DNA from: Synechococcus sp. Nb3U1
GTDB taxonomy: Bacteria > Cyanobacteriota > Cyanobacteriia > Thermostichales > Thermostichaceae
Length of the DNA: 64,000 nucleotides
Assembly: GCF_021533835.1 (NCBI RefSeq)
Contig: NZ_JAKFYQ010000003.1
Location: forward strand, 248,001 to 312,000
Reading direction: 5' to 3'
Numbering within the stretch: the stretch's first letter is position 1; the number at the start of each line of letters is the position of its first letter. The notes below the pieces were generated by a model that did no database searches, had not been told where the DNA came from, and saw nothing but the letters and a program-made list of their open reading frames with translations. Positions 12,108 to 52,451 of this stretch are shown here, piece after piece. Made by a program: the position numbers and the translations under genes.

Positions 12108-12137
12108 GACTCACCCCGCACCTGCCAAGGGATCCCG

Positions 12138-15218: not shown

Positions 15219-15327
15219 CTCCTCGTCTATTCAGTTGGCAAGGTAGAGTCATTTCCCCTCATTGATCCATTTCCACTTCCTGCAAAGCAGGCTGACGCTT
15301 AGCGCAGATCTCCCGAAATTGGCGCAA

Positions 15328-16161: not shown

Positions 16162-16289
16162 TAGGGTTCTTTACAAAACGGCTCCTCTGCTGCTGGCGGA
16201 GCCTCAATTGCTGCCCTGACCCCACCTGGGGTTGAGTTGAAAGGATCTGGGGAAACCAGGCAAGATGGGATCCCATTCTTTGGCACCCC

Positions 16290-17711: not shown

Positions 17712-17724
17712 TCCCAAGCTGAGA

Positions 17725-36522: not shown

Positions 36523-38219
36523 GGACGGGGCAAAAACCTCGGCAAGTCTACCGCCTTTTTGTTCACCCGCGCCGGTAGAGGCCGTGGTAGAGGCTGGATA
36601 GAAGGCTTGACAGGGGTAGGAGTTTTGGTTGTCGGCTCGGGGGGCATCTCCTGTCCCTTTCGCTCCAGAGCAGCCTTCAAGCTGAGGATATGCATCTGTT
36701 GCTCATCATATTTGTCTTTCAAGCCCCGGTTTTCTTCGTAGAGGGCGGCGCGTTCTGCCTGTAGGAGCCTCAGTTGCTCCTCCCGTTTCTCCGCCTGAGC
36801 TTGCAGTGCTTCGGTCTGTTCCTGTAAATGGGCGATGGTGGTTTGAGCAGCACGCAACTCCGGTTGCCAGTCCGGTTGGGCAGCGAGTTGGGCCAAAGCT
36901 GCTTGTAGCTGCTGCTGAACCTGGGTGTACTGTTCCTGCAGATGTTGGTGCGCCTGCTGCCAGTGGGTTACCTCTGCTTGAGCTTGGGATAGGGCCGCTT
37001 GCAACTCCTCAGCCTGGACTTGCCAGTATTGCTGTAGATGCTGCTGTTCCAGGGATCCCTGGCGCAGTTGTTCTTGACTGGCTTGGAGAGCGACCACTTG
37101 AGCTTGTACCGTCTCTAGGGCTGCTTCTAATTCCTGACGTTGCTCTTGCCAACGTTGCTCAGCTTCTGCTTCGGTTTCCGCATAGCCTGCCAGCCGCGCC
37201 TCCAGGTGTTCCCGTTGTTCCTGCCAGGCGGCCTGTTGGTCGCTGTGGAGAGCCCGCAAACTGCTGAGCTCGGTTTGGGTTTCGGAAATTTGCGTCCGGG
37301 CTAGAGAGAGTTCCGCCTTAAAGCGCTGCAACATGTCCACCCGTTTTTCCGCCAAATCCTGTGCTTCTAGGAGGGAGGCTTGTAACTCCTGTTGGCGATG
37401 TTCCCACTGGCGACGCTCCTGGGCATGGGCTAGCTGCAACTGCTCGATCTGTTCTTGTAGGGCTTCAATATCCTGCCGTTGACGGTCATTCAGCCGCTGA
37501 CGGGCCGCGATCTGGGCCTCTCGATCCGCCACTTGCACAGCCTGATCCGCTAAAGCCTGTTGCGCCTGTTGCAGAGTCCGCTCCTGCTCCTGTAACCGCT
37601 GTTGCTGTTCAGCCACTTGCTGCCGCAGGGCTTGATGCTCTGCCTCCCGGCTGGGATCAGGCGTGGGCTGAGCCTTCAATTGCAGCAGTTCTAGCTGTTG
37701 CTGCTGTTTGCGCGCCTGCAGTTCGGTTTGGGCCAGTTGAGTGCGCAAGGCCTGCACCTGGGCTTGCAGTTGCTCCTGAAGGGTCTGCCGTTCCTGCAGT
37801 TCGGCCTCGGCTTTGAGCAGGCGGGCTTCTAGCTGTTGTCGCTGTCTCAGGGCTTGGTGGTGCTCTGCGCCGAGATCCCGCTCTGGGGGCAAGCCATCGA
37901 CGGGCGGGATTGGATCCAAATCACCTGAGGGAGAGACATGCATAGGTTGAAGAGAAGATGAAGAGTCAGACAATAAAGTTCCTTGCAGTATAGAGAGATT
38001 TTTCAGGGGACTCAAGCGAGGAGAATTCCCCTGTAAAGATCCCTTCTCTGTGGGCGTTTTTGAACCTATTTCTTCCCCTTGAGCCGGTTCCAAATCGGGG
38101 AGTTGCCCATCTGCTGAAGTCGTTTTGCTTGTTCGTCTGGGGGCGCGAGTCCGGCGAGAGGATGCTTCCCCACGTTTAGGAGTGGACTCTGGCCCGTTGT
38201 TGCCTCGAGAACCTGCCAC
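36519..38219 (-). CDS. Long coiled-coil protein, Gln/Leu/Ala-rich, coupled to priA
   Basis: 566 residues. The first about 110 are basic and Ser/Pro-rich and probably disordered. Residues about 118-525 form an almost unbroken run of Gln/Glu/Leu/Ala heptads (for example QLQAQVQALRTQLAQTELQ), predicted as one long coiled coil. A short basic Pro-rich tail closes it. It has no signal peptide or membrane segment, so it should be cytoplasmic. Long bacterial coiled coils often act as cytoskeletal or chromosome-organising scaffolds, but no family is recognisable. Overlap with priA (ATGA at 36519-36522) suggests linked synthesis. Confidence 0.75.
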   Translation of the reverse strand: MAGSRGNNGPESTPKRGEASSRRTRAPRRTSKTTSADGQLPDLEPAQGEEIGSKTPTEKGSLQGNSPRLSPLKNLSILQGTLLSDSSSSLQPMHVSPSGDLDPIPPVDGLPPERDLGAEHHQALRQRQQLEARLLKAEAELQERQTLQEQLQAQVQALRTQLAQTELQARKQQQQLELLQLKAQPTPDPSREAEHQALRQQVAEQQQRLQEQERTLQQAQQALADQAVQVADREAQIAARQRLNDRQRQDIEALQEQIEQLQLAHAQERRQWEHRQQELQASLLEAQDLAEKRVDMLQRFKAELSLARTQISETQTELSSLRALHSDQQAAWQEQREHLEARLAGYAETEAEAEQRWQEQRQELEAALETVQAQVVALQASQEQLRQGSLEQQHLQQYWQVQAEELQAALSQAQAEVTHWQQAHQHLQEQYTQVQQQLQAALAQLAAQPDWQPELRAAQTTIAHLQEQTEALQAQAEKREEQLRLLQAERAALYEENRGLKDKYDEQQMHILSLKAALERKGQEMPPEPTTKTPTPVKPSIQPLPRPLPARVNKKAVDLPRFLPRP

Positions 38220-38481
38220 AATTGCCCCCTATCATCACCAACAACACTCACCCAATACACCCAGGATGGTTCGCACCATCTTAATCGGTTGCATTCAAAA
38301 GCGTCTCCGCCCCAATTGTAGGAGGGCTTTGGCAAAGCTTTAGAGGTCTGTTGAGGAGTATGACGAGCGGATCACCACAGCAACAGCCGTCCAGAGCAGA
38401 ACGGGGGCCTGTGGAAAACCGTCTTACCTTTGTCCCTCACTTTGCGATACTGCTAAAGGTGATGTTAAGAACTACAACATT

Positions 38482-40044
38482 ATGGTGATGCAGGATGTGG
38501 CAAAGGCTCGAGTTCAACTGCACCCACAGCACCGGCCCCGACAGGGATCCCGTTTAGCCTGTTCCACCCCTTGGAGCCTGCTATTTGGTTTGGTTAGCAT
38601 AGCCCCTGCCTTGGCTCAACCAGATCCTTCTGCAACATCGTCCAACCCAGCTGCCAGCCCTGCCGCCTTTACCCTGCCGGATAGCCGCGAAATCGTCACC
38701 CCCCCCCTGCCCCCCTCCTTATCCGTACCCCCTGACGCCGCCCTCCCTGCTGCCCCGGTTCTGGAGGGATCCCTGACGGCAGAAGAATTGGTGGTACCGC
38801 AATCTCCCCTGGAAGTGCGGATTGAGCGCACCGAAGGTTTGTCTTTACAAGAGGCCCTGGATATCGCCATCGCCCAAAACCCCGCCATTCAACAGGCAGA
38901 ATTGGCTGTACAACGAGCGGAGGCGGGAATTGCCCAAGCAGAGGCTGCCTATACCCCCACCCTCTCCAGTAGTGCCAACTACCAATACAGCGATGCCCCT
39001 TCCCCGGGGGGTGGGCCCAGCCGCGAATCCCACTCCCTCTCGGCGAGCGTGGTGCGGGTGGAGTACACCGCCTTTGACAGTGGCTTGCGGGATCAAAACC
39101 TGAAGCTAGCCCAAGAAGCGCTGCGTATTGCCCAGTTGCAACTGCAGCAAACCCTGCAGACAATAAAACAAAGTGTGGCCAATGCCTACTACGATTTACA
39201 AAGCTCCGATGCCAGGGTTGCCATCAGCCAAGCTGCCATCGAAAGCTCTGAAGCCACCCTCCGCGATGCCCAAGCCCGAGAACGAGCCGGACTGGGTACC
39301 CGCTTCGAGATCCTGCAAGCAGAGACAGAGGTGGCCAACAACCGACAAACCCTGCTGGCGGCCCAAAACACCCAACAACTGAACCGTCGCCGCTTGGCCG
39401 AATTGCTCAACTTTCCTAACCCCACCGATGTGGTGGCCAGTGACCGCGTTGAACCGATGGGGGAATGGGATTTGAGTCTAGAAGAAACAATTGTGGCTGC
39501 CTTTGCCCAACGGCAGGAATTGGAGATTCAACGGCAACAACTGGAACAAGCCCAAAGCCGTGTACGCTTGGCGCAAGCCAGCAATGGCCCGCGTATTGGC
39601 CTGTTTGCCACCCTCGACGCTGCCAACGATTTCAACGCCAGCCGCGACAGTTTCGATGTTGGCTATTCGGCAGGGGCCAATTTCAGCTTTACTTGGTTTG
39701 ATGGGGGAGAGGCGGAGGCCCAAGCCCGCCAAGCCCAGATTGATGGGCAAGTGGCCGTGAGCAATTTTGTCGGATCCCGCAATGAAATCCAACGGGGGGT
39801 AGAAGAAGCCTTTCTCACCCTCAGCTCCAGCCGCGAACAGATCGATTCGGCCAAGGTGGCTATTGCCTCGGCAGAAGAAAGCCTGCGCCTAGCTCGGTTG
39901 CGCGTGCAAGCGGGGGTGGGCACCCAAACGGAGGTGATCAACGCCGAGACCGCCCTCACCACCGCTCGCGGCAACCTTTCCAACGCCGTTATTGCCTACA
40001 ACCGTGCCCTTGTCCAACTGCGGCGGGCCATCGGTACCCTTTGA
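38482..40044 (+). CDS. TolC-family outer membrane efflux protein
   Basis: 520 residues. A signal peptide ending at ALAQ (about residue 47) and a Pro-rich periplasmic linker are followed by two repeated TolC/OEP domains. The helical signature LSLQEALDIAIAQNPAIQQAELAVQRAEAG (in pieces, about 115-145) and its echo ALTTARGNLSNAVIAYNRALVQLRRAIG at the end are clear. It forms the outer-membrane exit duct for a tripartite exporter or type I secretion. No inner-membrane pump or adaptor is adjacent. An ATP-rich exporter partner must be encoded elsewhere. Confidence 0.92.
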   Translation: MVMQDVAKARVQLHPQHRPRQGSRLACSTPWSLLFGLVSIAPALAQPDPSATSSNPAASPAAFTLPDSREIVTPPLPPSLSVPPDAALPAAPVLEGSLTAEELVVPQSPLEVRIERTEGLSLQEALDIAIAQNPAIQQAELAVQRAEAGIAQAEAAYTPTLSSSANYQYSDAPSPGGGPSRESHSLSASVVRVEYTAFDSGLRDQNLKLAQEALRIAQLQLQQTLQTIKQSVANAYYDLQSSDARVAISQAAIESSEATLRDAQARERAGLGTRFEILQAETEVANNRQTLLAAQNTQQLNRRRLAELLNFPNPTDVVASDRVEPMGEWDLSLEETIVAAFAQRQELEIQRQQLEQAQSRVRLAQASNGPRIGLFATLDAANDFNASRDSFDVGYSAGANFSFTWFDGGEAEAQARQAQIDGQVAVSNFVGSRNEIQRGVEEAFLTLSSSREQIDSAKVAIASAEESLRLARLRVQAGVGTQTEVINAETALTTARGNLSNAVIAYNRALVQLRRAIGTL

Positions 40045-40051
40045 CGGCGAC

Positions 40052-40330
40052 TTAATTGGAGGCTTGACTGAGGTGTTTCTGCAGCCAGGTGCGCAACTGG
40101 ATCACTGTCAGTCGTGGTGAGGGTTGCGGTAGAGGTTGCTCGGGATCCCCTGCCAGGCTAAGCACCGGAATGGCCAACTGATAGCGTTCCCACCAAGTGG
40201 AATTAGTGGTAATGTCGCGGATTTCCAGAGAGGGGATCTCGGGGATTTGCCGCAACTTGTCTGCCAAGCCTTCACAAAGGTGGCAGCCGGGTTTGCTATA
40301 GAGAATCAGGGGCGGCCAAGAGGGAGACAT
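40052..40330 (-). CDS. Glutaredoxin-like protein (DUF836 family)
   Basis: 92 residues with a thioredoxin-fold start LILYSKPGCHLC (CxxC at 16 and 19) and the conserved strand-loop IPVLSLAG holding the cis-Pro. DUF836 proteins are short glutaredoxin relatives of uncertain partner. It converges with tolC (7 bases between) and follows the nitrilase gene by 9 bases on the same strand. They are probably one transcript. Confidence 0.84.
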   Translation of the reverse strand: MSPSWPPLILYSKPGCHLCEGLADKLRQIPEIPSLEIRDITTNSTWWERYQLAIPVLSLAGDPEQPLPQPSPRLTVIQLRTWLQKHLSQASN

Positions 40331-40339
40331 GGCTTGCCC

Positions 40340-41167
40340 TCAACGGGTGACCGCACAGGCCAGGCGACGATGTTGCAGGGAGGGCATCTGCCGCCGCACC
40401 GACTGAAGGCGTTCTGGGTCAATTGCGGCGATCGCCGCCCCCGGTTTTTCCCCGCCCGCATCCGCCAAGATCGCCCCCCAGGGATCCAAAATCATGGCAT
40501 GGCCATGACATTGTCGCCGTTCGTAGTGGTTGCCCACTTGGGCAGGAGCGATCACATAGCAGGTATTCTCGATGGCCCGACATTGCAGCAAAATTTGCCA
40601 ATGATCTCGCCCGGTGTAGGCGGTAAAGGCCGCTGGGATGAGCAAAATCTGGGCTCCTCGATCCACCAAGGAGCGGTACAGCTCGGGGAAACGCACGTCA
40701 TAACAGACCGATAAACCGAGGTTCCCCAGAGGCTCTTGCTCGCAGGTCACCAGTTCATCTCCACTCACCACCGTGCTGGATTCGCGATAAGTGTTGCCAT
40801 CGGGCAAATTGACATCAAACAGATGGATTTTGCGATAGCGGGCCAGTTCTCTGCCATCGGGGTCATAGAGGGCGGCGGTGTTGTAGACCCTGCCCTGGCG
40901 ATCCGGTACAGGATACCCTCCACCCAAAACAAACACCTGATAGCGCTGGGCCATTTTGCCCAAAAAGGCTTCGGCCCGCTCCGAAATCTCTTGGGCGAGG
41001 CGGGTTTTCTCCGCTTCTGGCCCCATAAAGGCGAAGTTTTCCGGCAGTGTCACCAGCTCACAGCCCTGTCGCACCGCAAAATCGATCCACTCTTCCGCTT
41101 GCTGCAAATTGCTGGCCAGATCGGGAATGCTGGTCATCTGGATGGCGGCTGCCAGGTAGGGACGCAT
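40340..41167 (-). CDS. Carbon-nitrogen hydrolase, Nit1/Nit2-like amidase
   Basis: 275 residues of the nitrilase superfamily with the complete catalytic set: Glu43 (LPENFAF), Lys113 (YRKIHLFD) and nucleophile Cys155 (GLSVCYDVRFPELYR). The pattern is that of Nit2 omega-amidase and Nit1 deaminated-glutathione amidase rather than true nitrilases, so a repair role on 2-oxoglutaramate-type or deaminated glutathione substrates is likely. The gene contains the only classic HIP1 site I found outside the 43.6-49.6 kb island (40428-40435). The glutaredoxin-like gene follows. Confidence 0.88.
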   Translation of the reverse strand: MRPYLAAAIQMTSIPDLASNLQQAEEWIDFAVRQGCELVTLPENFAFMGPEAEKTRLAQEISERAEAFLGKMAQRYQVFVLGGGYPVPDRQGRVYNTAALYDPDGRELARYRKIHLFDVNLPDGNTYRESSTVVSGDELVTCEQEPLGNLGLSVCYDVRFPELYRSLVDRGAQILLIPAAFTAYTGRDHWQILLQCRAIENTCYVIAPAQVGNHYERRQCHGHAMILDPWGAILADAGGEKPGAAIAAIDPERLQSVRRQMPSLQHRRLACAVTR

Positions 41168-41212
41168 AGAGAAAACTCCGGAGGATGCTGAGGTGGGATC
41201 CCGAGGATCCTA

Positions 41213-41236
41213 AGAGGCTTAACCAGAGGCTTAACC
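41213..41236. repeat. Perfect 12-bp tandem duplication at the DUF2839 stop
   Basis: AGAGGCTTAACC occurs at 41213-41224 and 41225-41236. The TTA at 41231-41233 is the reverse complement of the TAA stop of the minus-strand DUF2839 gene, so the second unit contains the stop and the first lies beyond it. Confidence 0.95.
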
Positions 41237-41452
41237 GACCAAATGCCACCAGCCAAAGGTTGGGCCCACGAATCGTACTACGACCCAAAAGATGGCCAGC
41301 AGAATGATGCCCGCCCAGGCTCCACGGGTTGTCCAATCGTAGATCGTGCGCGCTTGCCCTTTGGTGAGGGGAATATCCTTGAGTTGGGGAAATACCAGTT
41401 CTTGATCAGGATCCTGGGGATCGCGGTTTTTGCGGCGCTTAGCTTCGCCCAT
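41231..41452 (-). CDS. DUF2839 small membrane protein
   Basis: 73 residues: the basic opening GEAKRRKNRDPQ, a short soluble region with LTKGQARTIYDWTTRGAWAGI, and one membrane segment near the C-terminus (about 47-65) ending in WWHLVG. This layout is the cyanobacterial DUF2839 family as I remember it. The function is unknown. It lies between copC and the nitrilase gene on the same strand; the gap to copC is 45 bases. The stop is inside a tandem duplication. Confidence 0.82.
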   Translation of the reverse strand: MGEAKRRKNRDPQDPDQELVFPQLKDIPLTKGQARTIYDWTTRGAWAGIILLAIFWVVVRFVGPTFGWWHLVG

Positions 41453-41497
41453 AGGGTTGCCTCCACGTTGCCTACTGCATTGCCAGGGTGGCGACTC

Positions 41498-41965
41498 CTA
41501 TCTTAATCGCAAGGGATCCCGAACCTGAGCGCGGGCTGCCAGTAGCGCCTGCAAAGCTTCGGGATCCGACTCCCCCACCTGAAAGACAAACGATCCGCTC
41601 ACCGGATGGGAATCTGCAGAAATAGCCTGCCAACTGACGATGTAAATCCCCTCCGGGATCTCTTCCGACAAATCCGCCTGTGGCCCATCGCCCGTAGTCA
41701 GCAGGTTCTCCAGTTCCAGCGCTTGTCCGGTGGTATCCAAAACCTGCAACTGAGTGATTTGCACTGACTCATTGAACTGCAGCCGCACCTGTGCTGGAGC
41801 CTCCTGTAACACTGCCCCATCCGGTGGGAATGTGGAGAGCAAACTGGCATGGGCAAAACTGGGTTGGATCCCTATCAGCCACAGCAACAGACAGAGGATC
41901 CCGCTCGCACCAGGGAGACGGAGTCTTTTCAGGACGGACTTGGAGAAATAGGACAAATAGGACAT
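41498..41965 (-). CDS. copC: CopC-domain copper-binding periplasmic protein
   Basis: 155 residues: a signal peptide ending at PSFA, then His39 at the mature N-terminus (HASLLSTFPPDGAVL), which in CopC proteins binds Cu(II). The beta-barrel core with VRLQFNESVQ and the second His in ADSHPVSGSF follow. The Met-rich Cu(I) site of classic CopC is not evident, so this is probably a Cu(II)-only form. No copD follows. A His-rich ORF lies just upstream on the same strand. A 9-bp tandem repeat at 41946-41963 duplicates three codons near the start. Confidence 0.86.
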   Translation of the reverse strand: MSYLSYFSKSVLKRLRLPGASGILCLLLWLIGIQPSFAHASLLSTFPPDGAVLQEAPAQVRLQFNESVQITQLQVLDTTGQALELENLLTTGDGPQADLSEEIPEGIYIVSWQAISADSHPVSGSFVFQVGESDPEALQALLAARAQVRDPLRLR

Positions 41966-42065
41966 AGTGACCCGGGATGCCTATCCAACTCAGTGGATCT
42001 GGTTACGGGGACTGATCTGCTAGAGCCTTTCAAAAGTTTCGCCCAGCTCTGTCCAGTTTCGGATC

Positions 42066-42251
42066 CTAGGGGTTGGAGTGCCCGTGGGAGTGGTCGTGAC
42101 TGTGACCATGGCCATGGGAGGATTGATCTCCTGTAAGCTTCAACAGAGGGGCCGGTTTCGGCAGCGCATGGGGATCCTCACCGGGTTGAGCCACCTGGAT
42201 GTCAAGCCCCGGATGTCGGAGAGCCCGGATACTATGGGGGCAGGATCCCAA
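42066..42251 (-). CDS. Small His-rich ORF upstream of copC, possible metal-binding peptide
   Basis: The minus-strand frame reads 61 codons from a TTG at 42251, with a C-terminal run of alternating His (SSHGHGHSHDHSHGHS, about 44-59). Such tails bind Ni, Zn, Co or Cu in chaperones and transporters. There is no membrane segment or signal peptide and no clear ribosome site. The TTG is 8 bases from the divergent dnaG start. The 100-base gap and shared strand with copC make a metal-related role attractive. It could also be a remnant of a larger protein; an internal GTG start is possible. Confidence 0.45.
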   Translation of the reverse strand: MGSCPHSIRALRHPGLDIQVAQPGEDPHALPKPAPLLKLTGDQSSHGHGHSHDHSHGHSNP

Positions 42252-42259
42252 TCGAGTCC

Positions 42260-44167
42260 ATGAGCGGTCTACCCCCTGATACGATCAACTTGGTGCGCCA
42301 AAAGGCTGACCTCGCTGAGGTGGTAGCCGAAAAGGTGGTGCTGCGTAAGCAGGGTAAGAACTTTGTCGGGCTTTGCCCCTTCCACAACGACCGTAAGCCC
42401 AGTTTTCAGGTCAGCCCCAGCAAACAGATCTACAAATGTTTCTCCTGCGGTGCTGGGGGGGATGTGCTGCGTTTTGTCAGCCAGATGGAGCACCTCTCCT
42501 TTGCTGAGGCGGTGCGTAAGCTGGCCCAGCGCTATCATGTACACCTTCCTGAGGGATCCCTGCAACAGCGACAAGTCTATGAACGTAAGCTCTCTCACCA
42601 AGAAAAGCTGCTGGACATTTTGGCCATGGCCGCCGATTTTTATCAGCATGCCCTCAGATCCAGCTTGGGATCCGCTGCCCGCCGCTACCTACAAAACCGC
42701 CAACTCAGCGAAGTCACCCTGCAAAAATTTCAGGTTGGCTTTGCCCCTCCTGGCTGGCAGTCCCTTTATGAGTATTTGGTCAATCAAAAACGCCAACCGG
42801 TTCATCTTTTAGAAGAAGCAGGATTGTTGGTGGCCCGCCAACAGGGATCCGGCCATTACGATCGCTTTCGTCACCGGATTATGCTGCCCATCTTTGATTT
42901 ACAAGGGCGGGTGATTGGTTTTGCAGGCAGAGCACTTGGAGAGGAACAGCCCAAATATCTCAATTCCCCAGAAACAGAACTGTTTAGTAAAAGCCAGGTG
43001 GTGTATGGCCTCAATTTTGCCCGTGATGCCATTGTTAAAGCCGATCAAGTGTTGATTGTTGAAGGCTATTTCGATGTCATAGCCCTGCATCAAGCTGGGA
43101 TCCCTCAAGCTGTTGCCGCCATGGGTACGGCCCTCACCTCACAACAGATAAAAACCCTCCTGCGCTATACTGAATCAAAGCGATTAATTTTTAATTTTGA
43201 TGGGGATCGGGCTGGGCTAAAAGCAGCTGAGCGAGCAATTGAGGCAATCGAAGAGCAGGCGCGGCGTGGCGAAGTGGAACTGCGCATTCTCACCATTCCC
43301 GACGGCAAAGATGCCGACGAATTTCTGCGGGATCATCCGGTTGGTGAGTTTCAAGCTCTGCTAAATCAAGCTCCCCTTTGGCTGGATTGGCAGATCGAAC
43401 AGGTGCTCTCCGGTCGGGATCTTAGCCGGGCTAGCGATTTTCAACAAGCCCATCAAGCCTTTGTCCAATTGCTCGCCGGTTTGGGTGGACAATGGCGCTC
43501 TTTATATTTGCACAAAGTGGCGGAATTACTCAGCCGGGGCAATGGCCGCCTTAGTCGGGATTTGGAAGAAGAACTACGCCGAGGAGTACGGCAATATCGC
43601 TGGGCCAAACCGGAGCAACTTTCTCCGGCTAAGGGATCCAAGTTGTTGCAATCGGAATCCCATTTGCTACAGATTTTTCTGCATTTTTGTGAGTACCGCC
43701 GCGAAATTCGTGAGGCTTTGTTGGAGCGAGAACTGCAATTTAGCTTTCGTCCCCACCGGGATCTGTGGCAGCGGATTTTGGAGCTGGTGTATGGGCAACC
43801 AGAATTAGAAACCCAAGAAGAAGCTCTGCTCACGGCCTTGCGTACCATTTGTGCCCATGATGAACAACTGAACGAGCGGCTCAGCCATCTGCTCTGGTTG
43901 GATGAAAATACCCGCGTGGCCCTAATGCGCCCCCGGATCGTGGTGCGGGCAGCCATCGCCAATATGGAGCTGGAAATTCGCCAGAAACGCTACCGCTACT
44001 GGACACAACTGTGGGATCAAGCCTTTTCCGAAGGCAACACAACCCTAGCCGCCCAATATCAAGCTAGCATTCAGCAGGAATACCAGGCGATTCAAACGCT
44101 GCAACGGGATGTGCAACTGAGCGTAGAAGACATGCTAGAGACGCCACTAACTGAAGATTTACTTTGA
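42260..44167 (+). CDS. dnaG: DNA primase
   Basis: 635 residues. The N-terminal zinc-binding domain has Cys39, His42, Cys60 and Cys63 (LCPFHNDRKPSF...YKCFSCGAGGD). It is followed by the TOPRIM RNA polymerase core with VEGYFDVIALHQAG, RLIFNFDGDRAGLKAA and PDGKDADEFL, and by a C-terminal helicase-interaction region. It makes RNA primers for lagging-strand synthesis. The gene has about five GGATCC sites in its first 1.4 kb. The last about 530 bases have none, but the protein is intact to the end. Confidence 0.96.
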   Translation: MSGLPPDTINLVRQKADLAEVVAEKVVLRKQGKNFVGLCPFHNDRKPSFQVSPSKQIYKCFSCGAGGDVLRFVSQMEHLSFAEAVRKLAQRYHVHLPEGSLQQRQVYERKLSHQEKLLDILAMAADFYQHALRSSLGSAARRYLQNRQLSEVTLQKFQVGFAPPGWQSLYEYLVNQKRQPVHLLEEAGLLVARQQGSGHYDRFRHRIMLPIFDLQGRVIGFAGRALGEEQPKYLNSPETELFSKSQVVYGLNFARDAIVKADQVLIVEGYFDVIALHQAGIPQAVAAMGTALTSQQIKTLLRYTESKRLIFNFDGDRAGLKAAERAIEAIEEQARRGEVELRILTIPDGKDADEFLRDHPVGEFQALLNQAPLWLDWQIEQVLSGRDLSRASDFQQAHQAFVQLLAGLGGQWRSLYLHKVAELLSRGNGRLSRDLEEELRRGVRQYRWAKPEQLSPAKGSKLLQSESHLLQIFLHFCEYRREIREALLERELQFSFRPHRDLWQRILELVYGQPELETQEEALLTALRTICAHDEQLNERLSHLLWLDENTRVALMRPRIVVRAAIANMELEIRQKRYRYWTQLWDQAFSEGNTTLAAQYQASIQQEYQAIQTLQRDVQLSVEDMLETPLTEDLL

Positions 44168-44174
44168 TTGTCGA

Positions 44175-44200
44175 TTTAATCCATGAGTTTAATCTATGAG
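44175..44200. repeat. 13-bp tandem duplication around the AI-2E gene start
   Basis: TTTAATCCATGAG (44175-44187) and TTTAATCTATGAG (44188-44200) match at 12 of 13 positions. Each carries an ATG, in different frames; only the second (44196) opens the transporter gene. The first ATG could act as a short decoy start. Confidence 0.9.
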
Positions 44201-45281
44201 TTGGAAATCTTATCTGTTGCGGCTTGCTGTCTGGGGATTGCCCCTTCCTCTACTGGTTCTCAACGGCTGGGCACTGCTCCTTTTGCTTGATTACTTTCGC
44301 AGCATCTTTACCGTAGTAGTAGCAGCAATTCTGCTAGCCTTTGTGCTGGACTATCCCGTACTTTGGATACAACACTGGCAGCGACAGCGATCGCGGGCTG
44401 TAATTCTGGTGCTTCTTCTGTTAGTTGTGGTGCTTAGTGTTTTGGGTGTTACCCTCATCCCTTTGCTTATTCAGCAGGGCAATGAGTTGGCGAAACGCCT
44501 ACCCGAGTGGATTGCCTCTGGCAGCCAACAACTCAACAGTTTCCAGACTTGGGCAGCATCACGTCAGTTGCCAATAGATGTTAGCCATTGGACTATCGAG
44601 CTTGAAAACCAGGTGGCTGGCCAACTGCAGATGGCCACTGGGAGAGTGGCCAGCACACTCAGCAGTGCCATTGACGGTGTAATCAACATCATGCTTACCC
44701 TATTGCTAACTTTTTACCTACTGCTGCACGGTCAAACCCTTTGGGACAATGTGTTTCAGGTTCTACCGGTTCATCTGTCCAGACGGCTACGGCAAAGCTT
44801 AAAGCAAAACTTTCACAATTACTTTGTTGGTCAAGTCACAGTGGCATTATGTATGGCAGTAGCGATGGCGATCGCATTTGTAATTATTCGTGTGCCCTTT
44901 GGATTGGTCTTTGGCTTAAGCATTGGCATGATGGCACTATTTCCATTTGGGGCAGCGTTAGGCATTGTCATTGTTAGCTTTCTAACTGGACTCAATACGA
45001 TTTGGCTAGGAGTTAGAGTGCTGCTGGTCGCTACAGCAATCGACCAGATTATTGAAAACGGCTTGGCTCCCCAACTGCTTGGAGGCTTCACAGGACTGAG
45101 TCCAATATGGATTTTAATCTCACTGTTGGTGGGAGCTAAGGTAGCTGGACTACTGGGGCTAATCGTGGCAGTACCTATTGCCGGATCAATTCGCGATACC
45201 TTAGTTGCGCTGATACCACCATCCAACCTATCAATGACAACCATGACTGATCCCAGAACATTAAACCCCTTGGATCATTGA
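44196..45281 (+). CDS. AI-2E family transporter (PF01594-type permease)
   Basis: 361 residues with about seven to eight membrane segments: paired helices at the N-terminus (about 10-45 and 66-92), an extracytoplasmic loop (about 95-160), and further helices beyond 160. The layout and the GLSPIWILISLLVGAKVAGLLGLIVAVPI stretch match the AI-2E exporter superfamily, which includes Na+(Li+)/H+ antiporters as well as putative autoinducer exporters, so the substrate is not settled. It has two HIP1 octamers and no GGATCC, unlike flanking genes, and starts 28 bases after dnaG. Confidence 0.86.
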   Translation: MSWKSYLLRLAVWGLPLPLLVLNGWALLLLLDYFRSIFTVVVAAILLAFVLDYPVLWIQHWQRQRSRAVILVLLLLVVVLSVLGVTLIPLLIQQGNELAKRLPEWIASGSQQLNSFQTWAASRQLPIDVSHWTIELENQVAGQLQMATGRVASTLSSAIDGVINIMLTLLLTFYLLLHGQTLWDNVFQVLPVHLSRRLRQSLKQNFHNYFVGQVTVALCMAVAMAIAFVIIRVPFGLVFGLSIGMMALFPFGAALGIVIVSFLTGLNTIWLGVRVLLVATAIDQIIENGLAPQLLGGFTGLSPIWILISLLVGAKVAGLLGLIVAVPIAGSIRDTLVALIPPSNLSMTTMTDPRTLNPLDH

Positions 45282-45529
45282 TAAAGCCGAATGAAATCTT
45301 TGCGTCGAGATGACATGAAAACAAATACTGATTGAAGTTATCTCAATAGCTGGATCTTATCCATATCTATCCATATCCAGATCTAGCCAACCCCACGTAA
45401 CTTGGGCATCACTTGCATGGAGTATGTTAGACTCATTTTTGTTCTTAGTCTGTTTTTGTATTCTTAGCTTTATCGAACTGCATACCTAATATATATGTAA
45501 TTGTAGACAAATAATGATTCTGATAGGTT
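45282..45529. other. AT-rich intergenic region before mprF
   Basis: 248 bases of AT-rich sequence with no GGATCC. It contains a perfect 10-bp tandem repeat at 45358-45377 and TATATATG-like promoter material at about 45485-45500. AGG stands three bases before the ATG at 45530. No ORF or RNA gene is supported. Confidence 0.45.
45358..45377. repeat. Perfect 10-bp tandem duplication
   Basis: TATCCATATC occurs at 45358-45367 and 45368-45377, in the AT-rich gap between the permease and mprF genes. Confidence 0.9.
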
Positions 45530-48187
45530 ATGATGATTGGATTTAAGCATAGGCAGAACCCAAATTTAGAGCAAGCTGCCATATATGTAGTGTCTGGGCT
45601 GATTGCCCTAGCTGGGTTAATCAATCTATGGTCGGCAGTTACCCCAAGTGTACCTGAGCGATTGGCTTGGTTGGACGGTATTTTTCCAGTTGAGTTACGA
45701 GCTGGTGCTCATCTCTTTGCTGCTTTGAGTGGATTTTTTTTGTTGATGATAGCTGCAAATCTACTGCGCCGCAAGCGACTGGCCTGGGGGTTGGCAGTGG
45801 GTCTATTAATCATGTCGATTGTGAGCAACTTGCTCAAAGGGCTGGATTATGAAGAAGGGCTATTGTCCTTCGGCTTGTTGGTGGTGTTAGTGGTATTGCA
45901 GCCTCTTTACACAGCTCAGTCTGACCGACCATCCTTAATTCAGGGATTTTGGGCGTTAGCTGGGGCGCTACTGTTCACGCTGGCGTATGGCACCTTAGGT
46001 TTTTGGGCTCTTGATCGCAATTATGCCAGGTCGTTTAGTCTGCCGGAGGCACTGGGCCAAACCCTGGCCATGTTTTTTTTGGCCGACAATGCTGGCTTGC
46101 AGCCCACTAACCGCTTTGGACGATATTTTGCCGACTCAATCTACATAGTGGGATCGGTAACCCTGTTGTATGCGGGGTGGATGCTATTTCGTCCAGTAAT
46201 TCTTCGCGGTGGAGCCAGTGAGCTGGAGCGACAGCAGGCTAAGGCGATTGTGGAGCAGCATGGCCGCTCTTCGTTGGCTCGGTTTGCACTGTTAGAGGAC
46301 AAATCCTATTACTTTACTCCGTCAGGACAATCAGTTGTTGCCTATGTAGCCAAGGGGCGAGGAGCGATTGCGCTAGGGGATCCGATCGGCCCAACTGAGG
46401 ATCGGCCAGCAGCGATTGAGGGTTTCCGAGACTTTTGTGCCAAAAATGACTGGCATCCTGCCTTTTATCAAACCCTGCCTGATGATCTAGATCTGTATCA
46501 AAGTCTCGGCTTTCATATTTTGAAAGTGGGGGAAGAAGCTACAGTTGACCTGCATACTTTCACTCTGGAGGGTAAAGCTGGACGTAGTCTCCGCTCCGTG
46601 ATGAATAAATTCATCAAGCTGAACTACCGAGTTGAGTACTATACACCACCGATTAGAGATGAGCTACTAGATGAGCTAAAGGTCATCAGTGACGACTGGT
46701 TAGAGCAAATGCAGGGGGCTGAAAAAAAGTTTTCCTTAGGTTGGTTTGATCATGAATATTTACAGGAATGCAATATCGCTGTGGTCAAAAATGCCCAGGA
46801 TGTTCCTATCGCCTTTGCCAACCTAATTCCTGAATATCAGCACAATGAAGCCACCATTGACCTGATGCGTCATCGGCGCGATGCCGAGCGGGGAACCATG
46901 GATTTCTTATTTATTTCGCTGATTCAGCATTGCAAAGACCAGGGTTACGACAGCTTTAATCTGGGTTTAGTGGTTTTGTCTGGAGTTGGTGAATCTGTTA
47001 CTGCATCGCGTCTCGAAAAGGTTTTGCACTATCTCTATCAGCACCTTGATGAATTCTACAGTGCGCAGGGACTGCGGGCCTACAAGGACAAGTTTCATCC
47101 CAATTGGGAGCCTCGCTACTTAGTGTATGAACATCTAGCTGATCTACCTGATGTAGTGATTGCTTTGGTTAGAGCTGATTCGGGTGATCGCCTACAGGAC
47201 TATTTTGGGGCACAATTTTTTAGTATGGTGCTGACGCAGAGCCTGAAATGGGCATCTCAAGTTGCTCCAATTGTGCTGAGCCTGGGATTGTTTGTTCTCT
47301 CTGTCTGGGTGATCACAAATGAGCTGAGACACCACAGGCTCGGCGATGTTCTCAACAATATGGCAGCCATTCCGATCTGGACACTTGTGGGGGCAGTTGT
47401 ACTAACAATCCTCAACTATGTTTTTCTGACCGGCTACGACACGCTGGCTACCCGCCTTGTGGGTTGTCCGCTTCCCTACCCTAAAACTGCTCTGGTCGCG
47501 GTGATTAGCTATGCCATCAGCAACAGCATCGGCCTATCACTGCTGAGTGGCAGTGCTATTCGTTACCGCTTCTACAGTAACTGGGGGTTTAGCCCTGGCC
47601 AAATTGGCCAGATTATTGCCTTTTGTAATCTGAGTTTCTGGGTTGGCTTATTTGCGGTGGGGGGAGTAGTATTTTCAGTTGAGCCCTTATCGGTGCCAGG
47701 TGTTTTGCATCTGCCCTTTTCAGGGGTGCATCCTCTGGGCATTTTATTTTTGGCAATTATCTTCACCTACCTCTTGCTCAGTAGTAGGAGTCGTCGCAGA
47801 ATCAAACTTGGGGGGTGGGTATTGCCTCACATACCTCTGAAACTATCGTTAGGGCAAGTTGTTGTTACCTCATGCGACTGGGCCTTGGCGGCTGGCGCTC
47901 TCTATCTCTTGCTGCCTGATCATCCAAACCTTACCTACTTCATCTTTTTTGGGAACTATTTGCTTGCTCAAATTGCTGGTATTGTCAGCAACGTACCGGG
48001 TGGACTAGGTGTTTTCGAAACTGTGTTCATCTTGCTGCTCTCTCCTCCAATCGCTTCTGAGCAGATCTTGGGAGCGCTGCTTGTCTACCGTACGATTTAT
48101 TATTTTCTGCCCTTTCTGGTTAGCATTTCGTTGCTAGTTCTGTGGGAACAAAGAAAACTCAGGTCTGTGTCAAAACTTCAATCTTAG
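45530..48187 (+). CDS. mprF: MprF-like lysyl-phosphatidylglycerol synthase/flippase with permuted domains
   Basis: 885 residues. About 1-222: six to seven membrane segments ending with ADSIYIVGSVTLLYAGWMLF, the part that precedes the synthase in MprF. About 229-550: a GNAT-like DUF2156 aminoacyl-lipid synthase domain (HGRSSLARFALL, GDPIG, TIDLMRH, FNLGLVVLSGVG, YKDKFHPNWEPRYL). About 570-880: a flippase domain with YDTLATRLVG, ISYAISNSIGLSLLSGSAIRYR and VPGGLGVFE. Canonical MprF has the flippase at the N-terminus and the synthase last; here the flippase is last. It should transfer lysine or alanine from tRNA to phosphatidylglycerol and translocate the product, lowering membrane negative charge. 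One GGATCC only, consistent with acquisition. Confidence 0.87.
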   Translation: MMIGFKHRQNPNLEQAAIYVVSGLIALAGLINLWSAVTPSVPERLAWLDGIFPVELRAGAHLFAALSGFFLLMIAANLLRRKRLAWGLAVGLLIMSIVSNLLKGLDYEEGLLSFGLLVVLVVLQPLYTAQSDRPSLIQGFWALAGALLFTLAYGTLGFWALDRNYARSFSLPEALGQTLAMFFLADNAGLQPTNRFGRYFADSIYIVGSVTLLYAGWMLFRPVILRGGASELERQQAKAIVEQHGRSSLARFALLEDKSYYFTPSGQSVVAYVAKGRGAIALGDPIGPTEDRPAAIEGFRDFCAKNDWHPAFYQTLPDDLDLYQSLGFHILKVGEEATVDLHTFTLEGKAGRSLRSVMNKFIKLNYRVEYYTPPIRDELLDELKVISDDWLEQMQGAEKKFSLGWFDHEYLQECNIAVVKNAQDVPIAFANLIPEYQHNEATIDLMRHRRDAERGTMDFLFISLIQHCKDQGYDSFNLGLVVLSGVGESVTASRLEKVLHYLYQHLDEFYSAQGLRAYKDKFHPNWEPRYLVYEHLADLPDVVIALVRADSGDRLQDYFGAQFFSMVLTQSLKWASQVAPIVLSLGLFVLSVWVITNELRHHRLGDVLNNMAAIPIWTLVGAVVLTILNYVFLTGYDTLATRLVGCPLPYPKTALVAVISYAISNSIGLSLLSGSAIRYRFYSNWGFSPGQIGQIIAFCNLSFWVGLFAVGGVVFSVEPLSVPGVLHLPFSGVHPLGILFLAIIFTYLLLSSRSRRRIKLGGWVLPHIPLKLSLGQVVVTSCDWALAAGALYLLLPDHPNLTYFIFFGNYLLAQIAGIVSNVPGGLGVFETVFILLLSPPIASEQILGALLVYRTIYYFLPFLVSISLLVLWEQRKLRSVSKLQS

Positions 48188-48336
48188 TATTGTGTTTTTT
48201 TATTGGGCACCTTGATTTATTCCAAGGTAGTGAAAAGAGTGAGGGCTAGACCCTTATCGTCTTGAGCTGGTGGCAGGCTAAGGCCAACGCTTAGCATCCG
48301 TAATATCAATTCTCTAAATACCCGCTACACATAGAG
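48188..48336. other. Gap between mprF and the IS630 element
   Basis: Contains a seven-T run (48194-48200 area) shortly after the mprF stop, a small hairpin ACCTTG/CAAGGT (48209-48214 and 48223-48228), and GCTAAG/CTTAGC near 48270-48295. None has the full stem-plus-T layout of a strong terminator. ATTCTCT and AGAGAAT (about 48310-48338) form a further inverted repeat at the IS left end. Confidence 0.4.
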
Positions 48337-48350
48337 AATCGACAATCCAA
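48337..48350. repeat. Left terminal inverted repeat of the IS630 element
   Basis: AATCGACAATCCAA; reverse complement matches 49466-49479 at 12 of 14 positions. It lies just beyond the transposase stop side. Confidence 0.65.
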
Positions 48351-48360
48351 TCCCACTGAG

Positions 48361-48852
48361 TCAGCGATCGCAGCGACTCAGCCGACAAACCCACTGGCTG
48401 ATGGCGTGCTGGAGTTGGCCAACATCATCAAAGTGAACCCAAGCTAGCTCCCGCTTGAGTTCCCGCCAGACCCGCTCAATGGGATTGACCTCAGGGCAAT
48501 AAGGCGGCTGAAACACCAAGATGACATTGTCCGCTATCGTCAGGTTCTGAGCCGTATGGGCTGCGGCATTATCCACCTGAATCAGATGTAAATCATCGGG
48601 GAACTGAGCCGCAAAGCTGTGCAAAAACGCCTCAAAACAACAACTGTCGAGATGAGAAAACTCGACCATCCACGAGGCACCGCTCAGCGGTTCCACGAGA
48701 CCGTACAGCCACCGATACACAAACTCCCATTGAATTGAACCCATCGGCTGCACCCCAAAGCCCGTCAACTTGCGATGTTGAACCGTCAGCAGTCCGACGC
48801 GGCTCTCATCGCTGCACCAATAGCGGATTCGCCTCCTGTAGCGTTGTCTCAA
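48361..48852 (-). CDS. IS630 transposase, C-terminal (catalytic DDE) frame
   Basis: 163 codons. It has the DDE domain: Asp in CSDESRVGL, Asp in LIQVDNAAAHTA, and Glu in NPIERVWRELK. The frame is offset by one base (a -1 shift) relative to the upstream DNA-binding frame, and similarity to IS630 transposases runs straight across the overlap. It probably needs frameshifting to be made; the listed beginning at 48852 is an in-frame TTG, not a proven start. The reading continues upstream as QISQSLPPALRQRY. No internal stop is seen. Confidence 0.85.
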   Translation of the reverse strand: MRQRYRRRIRYWCSDESRVGLLTVQHRKLTGFGVQPMGSIQWEFVYRWLYGLVEPLSGASWMVEFSHLDSCCFEAFLHSFAAQFPDDLHLIQVDNAAAHTAQNLTIADNVILVFQPPYCPEVNPIERVWRELKRELAWVHFDDVGQLQHAISQWVCRLSRCDR

Positions 48853-49373
48853 GGCTGGCGGAAGCGACTGGCTGATCTGGGCTGCAAGGTTTGCTTAAAG
48901 GATTCGCACGCCCCAGGAGTCTGCTTCTTTGACACCGGACGGGGCACTTTGAGCTTCGCTTTGAGCCGATAGCGCACCGTCTTATGCACCGTCTTGTAGG
49001 GCACCCGTTGACCATGCACCGCTGCGAGCCACTGCTGCACCGCTCCATAACTGCTAAAGCCTTCTGGATCTTGCAGTTCCCGCTCTAAAGATGCCAGGAC
49101 TTCACCGCTAATCGCTCGCGGTCGTCCACTGCGAGATGCTACCTCCACCAACCCTTCGAGTCCACTCTGTCGATACTGGCTCAGCCACCGAGACACGGTC
49201 GTGCGATGGCAACCGCTCAGTTGGGCTAACTGCTCAACACGCTTCGCTTGTCCTGTTTTGAGCCACCACAACACCTGTACTTTACGGCGCTGTGATGACC
49301 GTTGCTGTTGTTCCAAGACGGCTTTTAGTTCTTCTGCTGTTTCAGCGATATCGATTTTGAGGACTCCACTCAT
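48849..49373 (-). CDS. IS630 transposase, N-terminal (helix-turn-helix) frame
   Basis: 174 codons from ATG at 49373. It contains two helix-turn-helix units for terminal-repeat binding: VEQLAQLSGCHRTTVSRWLSQYRQ and the GAVQQWLAAVHGQRVPYKTVHKTVRYRL stretch. The frame runs into FKQTLQPRSASRFRQP and stops at the point where the DDE frame takes over. This two-frame set-up is common in IS630, where a -1 frameshift makes the full transposase, but a simple one-base mutation is equally possible. Confidence 0.85.
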   Translation of the reverse strand: MSGVLKIDIAETAEELKAVLEQQQRSSQRRKVQVLWWLKTGQAKRVEQLAQLSGCHRTTVSRWLSQYRQSGLEGLVEVASRSGRPRAISGEVLASLERELQDPEGFSSYGAVQQWLAAVHGQRVPYKTVHKTVRYRLKAKLKVPRPVSKKQTPGACESFKQTLQPRSASRFRQP

Positions 49374-49405
49374 GGCGGTTGGCTCTAACGTCTTCTTATA
49401 TGTAG

Positions 49406-49423
49406 CAAATCTTCGGAGATTTG
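49406..49423 (-). promoter_or_regulatory. Perfect 7-bp hairpin with TCGG loop ahead of the transposase start
   Basis: CAAATCT (49406-49412) and AGATTTG (49417-49423) flank a four-base loop. It lies in the transposase mRNA leader, 33-50 bases before the ATG. Such hairpins in IS leaders can block translation from read-through transcripts, but that role is an inference. Confidence 0.5.
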
Positions 49424-49465
49424 ATATGAGCTGCGATATTTGTAACTCGAATTAAGTCCTCGCTG

Positions 49466-49479
49466 TTCGATTGTCCATT
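49466..49479. repeat. Right terminal inverted repeat of the IS630 element
   Basis: TTCGATTGTCCATT; see left copy at 48337-48350. It lies about 90 bases upstream of the transposase start. Confidence 0.65.
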
Positions 49480-49570
49480 GGAGCTTTGACTGGATGCCGA
49501 AGACACTCGTGGGAGTCTCATAGGGCGAAATGTAAAGTTTTATGTCTCCATTCAACACTTCTGCCCCTAA

Positions 49571-50755
49571 CTAAACCTCCTGCACAGTTAAAAGTCGGGA
49601 TCCGACCAATCGTTGTAGCCAAGGGGTGAGGAATTCCCGGTTTGCCAATTGTTGCTGGGGATCCTGAGTTTCTAGGGGAAAAGGAGCTAGGGCGCGCAAG
49701 GCAGCGGTGGTGACACAAAACATGGATTTCTGAAAGCTTAAACAGATTTTTACCCGCAGATCATCTTCTCCCCGCAGGCTACGGCGATAGTGTTCCCGTA
49801 AATAGGGGGGCAAATGCCGCATCATATCCTGCATCAGCAGGGTGGGTGGGATCCCAGCACTGCCCACTGGCAGCGGATCCGCATACAATGCCCCATAGGC
49901 AAAATCCGCCTGTTCCTCCGGGATCTGCCCGGCCTGGGCATTGTAAGACAGGGTACCCATGAAGGGAAACGAGCGGAAGAACACCGCCTCCACGTAGGGA
50001 ATGGCGGTATCCGGCAGGAAGGTCAGCCCCACCGACTGCGGGATCACCTCATGGCGTTGACCCCAAATGCGCGGGGCATAAGTAATCGGTTTGTCAGCAG
50101 CATCCACCAACCCCTGCTGCACATGGGCCACCACATCGGTAATGGTCAGGTGAGGTTCCGTCTCGTAGCGCTTGGCCAAAGCCAAGAACAGATCGCTCAT
50201 CACCCGCCAGAACTGGCCCAAACCGCTGTACATGGCCAGCATCCGCACCTGTTCCAGACCAAAATCGGGGAAGAACAGCCCCAAGCCCCGCAAAAAAGGG
50301 TTGAACTGGATCTTGGCTCGAATGGCGGCCTTGGCCCGTTCGATAAACTCCGGCGTATCCAGATGGGCATCCAAACCGCCCCCCCCATGCCAAAGCATGG
50401 CCTTCATGCAGTATTCAGCAAACTCGTAGTTGATGCGGTCATGCCAAAGGTAACGCAGCCACTTGCCAGGGGTAATCTCGCCATTGAAATACTTAAAGGC
50501 TGGGAACAGCTCCAGAAATTGGTGGTCGGCGATGAAGATCAAATTGCGGGAATAGGCATCCAACACCTCCCCGTAGCTGTGGAGGATCCCGATCACCTCC
50601 AGACGGTTGATCAGCGAATCCGGCAGCAGGGCACCCCCCGCCTCCAAGCGCTGCAAAATCGGGCGAATCCGCACCTGATCCAACGGATCCAGACCCACCA
50701 GCAGAAAACAGGAGGGAGAAAGAGAAGAGCCATCACGAGGCAAAGTGGAAGTCAT
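49571..50755 (-). CDS. chpX: CO2 hydration protein (ChpX/ChpY; CupA/CupB family)
   Basis: 394 residues, soluble, no signal. The family is recognised from the position behind ndhF-ndhD and from blocks such as KYFNGEITPGKWLRYLWHDRINYEFAEYCMKAMLWHGGGGLD and QVRMLAMYSGLGQFWRVMSDLF (in pieces). The protein joins the specialised NDH-1 complex at the thylakoid and hydrates CO2 to bicarbonate using redox energy. The length fits the constitutive ChpX (CupB) form rather than the longer ChpY (CupA) as I remember them; the symbol is therefore tentative. No cupS gene follows: the IS630 island lies beyond its stop. It starts 56 bases after ndhD. Confidence 0.82.
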   Translation of the reverse strand: MTSTLPRDGSSLSPSCFLLVGLDPLDQVRIRPILQRLEAGGALLPDSLINRLEVIGILHSYGEVLDAYSRNLIFIADHQFLELFPAFKYFNGEITPGKWLRYLWHDRINYEFAEYCMKAMLWHGGGGLDAHLDTPEFIERAKAAIRAKIQFNPFLRGLGLFFPDFGLEQVRMLAMYSGLGQFWRVMSDLFLALAKRYETEPHLTITDVVAHVQQGLVDAADKPITYAPRIWGQRHEVIPQSVGLTFLPDTAIPYVEAVFFRSFPFMGTLSYNAQAGQIPEEQADFAYGALYADPLPVGSAGIPPTLLMQDMMRHLPPYLREHYRRSLRGEDDLRVKICLSFQKSMFCVTTAALRALAPFPLETQDPQQQLANREFLTPWLQRLVGSRLLTVQEV

Positions 50756-50799
50756 GGGAGGAAGGAAGCATCAACAATCAGCCAAAAATCAAACTAAAA

Positions 50800-50819
50800 A
50801 TTCAAAGCCATTCAAAGCA
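50800..50819. repeat. 10-bp tandem duplication at the ndhD stop
   Basis: ATTCAAAGCC (50800-50809) and ATTCAAAGCA (50810-50819) match at 9 of 10 positions. The complement of the TGA stop of ndhD is at 50812-50814, in the second unit. Confidence 0.85.
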
Positions 50820-52320
50820 AAGTTGGATGACCTACATCGCTCACCGGGGCAAGCACCACCGCTGTTGAGGCCGGATCCAGGATATGAACCATCGTCGGCT
50901 CTACCCAGCCCGTCACCCAGGCCGGTTGCAACCCCAGCAGCACCACGATCACCGCCAACACCGCCGCTGGCAACCGTTCCCCCAAGCGTCGCCGGGGCAT
51001 AGCAATCGCGACATCGGATAGACGGCCAAAGAAAGCGCGGTTCACCATCAGCAGGAAATAAGCTGCCGTCAGACCCGTCCCGATCATGCACAGCAGGGTC
51101 TGCAAGGGGAACACCGGAAAGCTGCCGCGAAAGACGATGAACTCGGCGATAAAGCCCACCATACCCGGCGTGCCGCCGCTGGCCATCACCCCCAACACCA
51201 TCAAACTGCCGATCAACGGTAAGCCCCGCTCTGGATTGAGCAAGCCCTCTAGCAGCTTCAGATCTCGTGTGCCGGTGTTGGTGTAAACCGCCCCCACCAA
51301 CAGAAACAGCAGCGCCGAGATCAGACCGTGGCTGATCATTTGAAAGATAGATCCCACCAAAGCCAGAGGAGTGGCCGCCGCCGCCGCTAGCAAAATGTAG
51401 CCCATATGGGCAATCGAGCTGTAGGCCACCAACTTCTTCATATCCTGCTGCACCAGGGCATTGAAGGAGCCGTACAGCACGTTCACCACCGCCAAACCCG
51501 CCAACCACGGCCCCGCCTGCTCCCAGGCATCCGGCAACAGCTGCAAGCCAAAGCGCAACAGGCCATAGGTGCCCAATTTCAGCAGCAACCCTGCCAAGAG
51601 CACAGAAATAGGGGTGGAAGCCTCCACGTGCCCATCCGGCAGCCAAGTATGAAAAGGCACCAAGGGGATTTTAATGGCCAATCCCAACAAAATCGGGATC
51701 AACAACAAGCTCTGCTGTACCAAGGGCAGGGGATGAGCCTGCAACACCGCGTAGGTGAAGCTGTTGGTATCACTCAGCCAACTGAGGCCAAAGAAGCCAA
51801 TCAAAAGCAGGATCCCGGATAGGGCCGTATACACCAAAAATTTGGTGGCCGCATAGGTGCGGCGTGGCCCGCCCCAGATGGCAATGAGCAAATAAAGCGG
51901 GATCAGCTCGATCTCATAAAACAGGAAAAACAGCAGTAAGTTCTGCGCCAAAAAGGCCCCTGCCACTGCCGCCGCCAACATCAACAACAGACTGTAATAA
52001 AGGCGAGGCCGCTCCACTTTGCCACTAGCCCAAATGGCGATTAGCACCAGCAAGCCATTCATCACCACTAAAGGTAAGGAAATACCATCCACCCCTAACT
52101 CGTAGATCAAGCCCAATTGCGGGATCCAAGGCACCGTCTCCGCCAGTTGCAAAGATCCCAGACTGGGATCAAATTGCAGCAACAACCCCATACTCAGGCC
52201 GAACAAAATCAGCCCAAACGTTAGGGCTAATGTTCGATGGATCTGCCGATCCAATTGCTCCGGGATCAACCCAATCACCGCTGCCCCCAGCAATGGGATC
52301 CCGATCAATAGGCTTAACAT
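50812..52320 (-). CDS. ndhD: NAD(P)H-quinone oxidoreductase subunit D-type, CO2-uptake NDH-1
   Basis: 502 residues with about 14 membrane segments of the proton-translocating antiporter-like family. Clear parts are LIYELGVDGISLPLVVMNGLL, the LVPFHTWLPDGHVEASTPISVLLAGLLLKLGTYG region with the conserved Lys and Glu, and QQDMKKLVAYSSIAHMGY. It lies between ndhF and chp, so it is the ndhD3/ndhD4 type, part of CO2-uptake complexes rather than of respiratory NDH-1. Which of the two cannot be decided by eye. Confidence 0.93.
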   Translation of the reverse strand: MLSLLIGIPLLGAAVIGLIPEQLDRQIHRTLALTFGLILFGLSMGLLLQFDPSLGSLQLAETVPWIPQLGLIYELGVDGISLPLVVMNGLLVLIAIWASGKVERPRLYYSLLLMLAAAVAGAFLAQNLLLFFLFYEIELIPLYLLIAIWGGPRRTYAATKFLVYTALSGILLLIGFFGLSWLSDTNSFTYAVLQAHPLPLVQQSLLLIPILLGLAIKIPLVPFHTWLPDGHVEASTPISVLLAGLLLKLGTYGLLRFGLQLLPDAWEQAGPWLAGLAVVNVLYGSFNALVQQDMKKLVAYSSIAHMGYILLAAAAATPLALVGSIFQMISHGLISALLFLLVGAVYTNTGTRDLKLLEGLLNPERGLPLIGSLMVLGVMASGGTPGMVGFIAEFIVFRGSFPVFPLQTLLCMIGTGLTAAYFLLMVNRAFFGRLSDVAIAMPRRRLGERLPAAVLAVIVVLLGLQPAWVTGWVEPTMVHILDPASTAVVLAPVSDVGHPTLL

Positions 52321-52451
52321 TCTTCTCTCCTAGCCAATCGCACCCTCACCACAAAACCTCTGCTAATTGCAAGTCTGAAATGTTCTGATATGTTTTGATC
52401 CCGAGTTAACGCCCTCAAGTCGAAGCTAAAGGTAAAGCCACTGCTCATTCT

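Follow-up and report, generated by a model that had tools for sequence, protein, structure and literature searches.

Why does a palindrome that is strongly over-represented in a Thermostichus-like genome nearly vanish over 6 kb, and can the different palindrome that appears there tell where the DNA came from? The window, i.e., the whole 64-kb stretch that was analysed (G000:C3:248001-312000, from a genome of 3.49 Mb in four contigs), contains 204 copies of GGATCC versus 25.4 ± 4.9 in shuffled sequences, an approximately eightfold over-representation. GGATCC is often part of GGGATCCC, of which 82 copies are spread across the window and none lies within positions 43640-49597. Within this interval GGATCC occurs once, at 46378, and no GGATCC-free gap of the window is longer than the two on either side of it (2744 and 3220 bp). 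The GC content falls there from approximately 0.57 to 0.49, and HIP1 (GCGATCGC) is present three times (44387, 44868 and 48364) versus once in the remainder of the window. An earlier note had described the interval as an island of foreign DNA in which HIP1 may name the donor group, and its HIP1 counts and positions are reproduced here.

The deficit persists when it is judged against the genome's own background. In 38 other 20-kb stretches of the same genome (760 kb), the densities are 3.37 per kb for GGATCC and 0.028 per kb for HIP1, so that about 20 GGATCC and 0.16 HIP1 sites are expected per 6 kb, and a Poisson estimate for at most one GGATCC in the interval is near 4e-8. Among 1219 overlapping 6-kb segments, two or fewer GGATCC were counted only in the island and at one other place; the sliding count proposed earlier thus finds the island nearly unique, but with one rival as poor as itself. 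This other stretch (G000:C1:1320001-1340000, 6 kb from 13001), with two GGATCC, a GC content of 0.41 and no HIP1, is possibly an island of different source.

The interval was delimited by GGATCC sites and so opens with ~530 bp that belong to a dnaG gene of host type, namely its 3′ end (Table 1). The notion of a single island is therefore sustained for a foreign core, but not for the interval as a whole, which is a composite of this dnaG end, the core and an independent insertion sequence. The latter was correctly recognized as an insertion sequence and belongs to the IS630 family: its terminal inverted repeats are imperfect, a TA stands at either end, and its transposase lies in two overlapping frames; because the halves overlap in different frames, its activity may need a frameshift. 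It is, on the other hand, no part of the island, being a separate insertion with its own ends and with a second copy that stands without the cassette (C1:2041897-2043031, 100% identity, rounded, over 1135 aligned bases). Since the HIP1 site at 48364 lies inside this mobile element, of which the genome carries two copies, it is uninformative on the origin of the cassette. All three HIP1 sites exist, but only two, both in the permease gene, bear on the cassette itself. Extended HIP1 contexts were also considered as a means of narrowing the donor and were set aside, as the three sites have no common extension by eye.

Table 1. Features in and around the palindrome-poor interval (positions in the window).
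Feature	Positions	Strand	Basis
Block differing from nearest relative G005	41509..49577		blastn collinearity of flanks
copC	41498..41965	-	Pfam CopC; host-type DNA; matches L070, L074, L076 near dnaG
ycnI-like (DUF1775) gene remnant	42074..42200	-	blastn to L069, L072, L074, L076, L078; Pfam of the intact gene
Second dnaG (primase)	42260..44167	+	TIGR01391; host-type palindromes
Foreign core, 4.0 kb	44168..48190		GC 0.47, 1 GGATCC, 2 HIP1
AI-2E family permease	44196..45281	+	PF01594 E 3e-64; HIP1 at 44387, 44868
Fused MprF, 885 aa	45530..48187	+	Pfam 239-533 and 581-864; alignment to solved MprFs in swapped order
IS630-family element	48306..49424	-	NF033545 in both transposase halves; inverted repeat; HIP1 at 48364
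chp (CO2 hydration protein), native right flank	49571..50755	-	PF10216

Comparison with relatives locates the block precisely. In all five congeneric genomes chp and the genes beyond it are collinear. In the comparison with the nearest relative, G005, both flanks are collinear at 84-86% identity; by blastn, window positions 34771-41508 and 49578-52372 correspond to 19999-13253 and 10455-7668 of L079. The G005 flanks are 2.8 kb apart, with a DUF4394 gene, an ECF sigma factor and an RskA-like anti-sigma factor between them. We rejected the idea that the host had lost these sigma/anti-sigma genes, as a G005-type sigma gene is present elsewhere in its genome (C1:1470024, 88% identical). The locus has therefore undergone rearrangement, and no clean empty site is found, the G005 interval being filled by an unrelated 2.8 kb. 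The empty site between dnaG and chp that the earlier note expected in related strains has to be abandoned, because the two genes are never neighbours there and lie far apart or on different contigs. Absence from close relatives at the locus, one mark of an acquired island, was found: G005 carries other genes, and this MprF is missing from five of five congeneric genomes. In the list of open reading frames, no integrase, tRNA or target duplication was noticed at the edges.

The dnaG at the island edge, named simply as dnaG in the earlier note, is a second, diverged copy. The native gene lies at G000:C2:494923-496827 in a context common to G005; both copies are intact, and congeners have one. 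With 86.7% DNA identity, dN of 0.038 and dS of 0.68 (dN/dS about 0.05) between them, both copies have been under purifying selection. The dS between the native dnaG and that of G005 is likewise 0.68, so dnaG2 is about as old as the G005 split, or else came from a strain about that distant. It retains all four GGATCC sites of dnaG1 plus one more and is thus DNA of the host's type. The segment it belongs to looks like the copC-DUF1775-cytochrome-dnaG locus of relatives from which an inner part has been deleted: copC is upstream of dnaG in three congeners, the intact DUF1775 gene of relatives sits between the two, and the cytochrome c gene of their locus is missing from the window locus.

The foreign character of the core is evident in its composition and codon use. 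Its GC content is under that of the host, but also under that of the two nearest mprF relatives, which counts against the favoured donor. Among 517 genes the codon scores of the permease and MprF rank at percentiles 1.9 and 4.8, versus 94 and 97 for the flanking chp and nuoM. Both island genes are low, as the codon comparison called for earlier would have it, and such deviation in composition and codon use is that of an acquired island. The nearest full-length relatives of the MprF are found in other families, namely in a genome from a pond metagenome (71%), G019 (69%) and Waterburya (62%), and the fused protein groups with these distant taxa. In trees built with cyanobacterial rows only, the fused proteins of the window, G019, L017 and L018 form one clade (support 100/99 for the synthase, 86/90 for the flippase), and both trees branch as (Waterburya, (G019, (window, pond genome))). 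The single clade and the common order of the two trees speak for a fusion that happened once and for entry into Thermostichus by transfer. The call for gene trees is answered in part: MprF groups with distant HIP1-bearing cyanobacteria, but the permease tree points to other genomes, placing the window protein with G035 and G017 (93/72).

Traces of the donor's palindrome may survive within mprF. The loci of the fused-MprF relatives hold 12 to 38 HIP1 sites and 0 or 1 GGATCC, and their mprF genes 4 to 6 HIP1 each; that the window mprF contains no intact HIP1 tells against such a donor. Where the pond genome and Waterburya have HIP1 at one site, the window reads GCGATTGC; at another, with HIP1 in all three relatives, it reads GTGATCGC. 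Each is one base off, and a third site in common shows four differences in the window. The off-by-one sites would reflect decay after arrival in a genome of non-HIP1 type, and a donor in the course of losing HIP1 would look alike. The absence from congeners, the fused-protein clade, the low codon scores and the one-off HIP1 sites together give good support to a transfer from a cyanobacterium of HIP1 type, and the proposal of a foreign island with such a donor is upheld.

The transferred MprF is unusual, as had been suspected, in that a single protein of 885 aa has its domains in reversed order: transmembrane subdomain 2, then LPG_synthase_C, and then flippase subdomain 1 (LPG_synthase_TM). Aligned with Pseudomonas MprF, residues 20-117 correspond to subdomain 2, 213-534 to the synthase and 580-877 to subdomain 1. 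The catalytic domain is recognized by PF09924 (E 3e-94), and its predicted fold matches 4v36 and 5vrv (Z 31-33, 2.6-2.9 Å, 311-321 residues). The flippase is recognized by PF03706 above cut-off (residues 581-864) and aligns by sequence to residues 50-355 of 9w50; it does not precede the synthase. The predicted model has a mean pLDDT of 80.5 overall, with a confident synthase and flippase and a weak linker at 555-573; in a structure search with the whole model only residues 224-551 tested well, the flippase half being supported by sequence. The known topology of canonical MprF places both ends of each part at the cytosolic face, so the swapped joining order would need no extra membrane crossing. 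By homology, the protein would transfer lysine or alanine from tRNA to phosphatidylglycerol at the inner face, and the aminoacylated lipid would be flipped outward. RtMprF has flippase subdomain 1 (TM1-8), subdomain 2 (TM9-14) and then the cytosolic synthase (PMC8131360). The bifunctional MprFs of Rhizobium and Pseudomonas (7duw, 7f47, 9goe and 9j8q) have the same parts as the window protein, but in the order 1, 2, synthase instead of 2, synthase, 1.

Among the 386 genomes of the phylum sample, the full-length fused form occurs in two, the window's genome and G019; other matching genomes encode a synthase of ~560 residues, a flippase of ~320, or both. In G171, G319 and G146, a synthase gene is directly followed by a flippase gene. 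These three genomes and plasmid pCHRO.01 of Chroococcidiopsis thermalis match the window in both gene families and in their order, but encode two separate proteins where the window has one. The plasmid (L183) is 371 kb long and typed conjugative, and is a possible vehicle for the spread of these genes. As such same-order split genes are common in cyanobacteria, the simplest origin of the fused MprF is that two genes lying side by side became one. That an intact MprF gene was circularly permuted was considered and judged less likely; alternatively, an older fusion may have been split later, the root being unsure with a far alphaproteobacterial outgroup. A search of the literature, with most subscription journals outside its reach, returned nothing relevant on a reversed MprF order or on a link between MprF and AI-2E proteins. 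We found no description of a reversed fused MprF or of its permease neighbour, and a protein-architecture database may already list it.

The neighbouring gene was rightly called a permease and belongs to the AI-2E family (PF01594, 217.7 bits versus a cut-off of 34.3). An AI-2E gene adjoins a synthase or flippase gene in G146, G018, G037, G017, G161, G050 and the window, in the order permease-synthase-flippase in G146 and permease-synthase in G018 and G037. Because a genome of several megabases has only a handful of AI-2E genes, we estimate that this adjacency is far above chance. The permease was not found beside the fused MprF within the examined stretches of G019 and L018, and the L017 contig starts inside the gene. 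A common donor for permease and MprF is likely, and one may guess at a role of the permease in export or lipid handling tied to MprF.

Three other histories deserve attention. The most serious is that two donors, or two events, supplied the permease and MprF, which met by chance or through selection for a shared function. The permease relatives (G035 and G017) do differ from those of MprF, and the stretches examined around the fused-MprF relatives are without a nearby permease. On the other hand, GC and GC3 are nearly equal in the two genes, and the gene orders of G146, G018 and G037 suggest an inherited operon, so that we regard two donors as unlikely, though worth keeping in mind, and a single transfer of both genes as the probable course.

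Much less probable is an ancestral presence of the genes in Thermostichaceae with loss in the congeners sampled, the deficit reflecting a local relaxation of palindrome maintenance. G006, a member of the family, does carry a distant flippase-like gene (38%), which would fit such ancestry. Against this history, loss in five congeners would be required, the window protein nests in the fused clade next to the pond genome and G019, codon use is foreign, and the adjoining dnaG2 has preserved its GGATCC sites. Hardly credible is the idea that the IS630 element carried the cassette genes in as a transposon: it does stand directly behind mprF, but it is a complete unit with its own ends and there is no second IS copy left of the cassette. 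Simple transposition of the cassette is refuted by the solitary copy at C1:2041897.

Our preferred account, to which we assign a probability of roughly 0.86, is that a host with GGGATCCC took up a two-gene cassette from a HIP1 cyanobacterium at a rearranged locus, and that IS630 inserted behind it. A Thermostichus-like host would maintain GGGATCCC as its highly iterated palindrome; a distant cyanobacterium maintaining HIP1, in whose lineage a synthase gene and a flippase gene had been joined, would have supplied the AI-2E permease followed by the fused MprF. The cassette would have come to lie beside chp, together with the second host-type copC/dnaG segment, and the IS630 element would have jumped in behind it. 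The HIP1 sites in MprF would have decayed because the recipient does not maintain HIP1, the two in the permease would remain, and the host palindrome would not have accumulated.

HIP1 may mark acquired DNA elsewhere in this genome. A genome scan found 112 HIP1 sites versus 34 for a reversed control, with clusters on C1, and the three clusters examined, which were chosen for HIP1, are all GGATCC-poor. One (G000:C1:1476000-1495999, 7300-19500) contains a fragment of an ISL3-type transposase, together with a type I-E CRISPR-Cas operon in which cas3 has been split into pieces. Another (G000:C1:2070000-2089999, 4769-13869) is defence-like, with an SNF2/NO VEIN helicase gene (6 HIP1) and, after it, the gene for a 1399-aa DUF1156 protein that carries an intein-like Hint and LAGLIDADG insertion. 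The third (G000:C1:1919000-1938999) has one GGATCC and five HIP1 in 20 kb, encodes DNA methyltransferases, a HerA-like protein, an ArsP permease and an alternative oxidase, and is likely another acquired region. These clusters, having been selected by HIP1, offer support, not proof. In the unbiased sample, the island's bin is the sole one without GGATCC, and with so few gaps a genome-wide link to HIP1 would rest on the clusters selected by HIP1.

The reading of transfer from a deficit of the host palindrome has been published (PMC3025956, PMC3497702). The islands of Synechococcus elongatus PCC 7942 combine this deficit with odd codon use, as here, but there HIP1 is the host palindrome and the donor is not named, whereas here GGGATCCC is that of the host and HIP1 that of the donor (PMC3025956). 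In the accessible part of a study of HIP derivatives, GGGATCCC is the iterated palindrome of Synechococcus JA-3-3Ab and JA-2-3B, probably of the same host group, and palindromes are counted over whole genomes, while the present case concerns an island with a different palindrome (PMC4390886). With a second palindrome and decayed sites used to derive the class of the donor, the present approach is a modest extension of the published one.

What this locus may mean reaches beyond a single insertion. One tentative idea, which we hold to be somewhat less probable than its opposite, is that palindromes form a readable “dialect” of donor class and age, and that a synthase-then-flippase MprF lineage with an AI-2E permease has gone undescribed. 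If so, moved DNA would keep the palindrome of its donor and lose the sites base by base, donor class and age could be read from intact and one-off sites, and the AI-2E permease may serve the same lipid pathway as the fused MprF. The direction of transfer would be readable from two palindromes, which could give estimates of age and source without gene trees. The parts of MprF have here been rearranged in nature, with the flippase at the enzyme's other end, and the recurring AI-2E/MprF neighbourhood suggests a role in lipid modification for the poorly understood AI-2E family.
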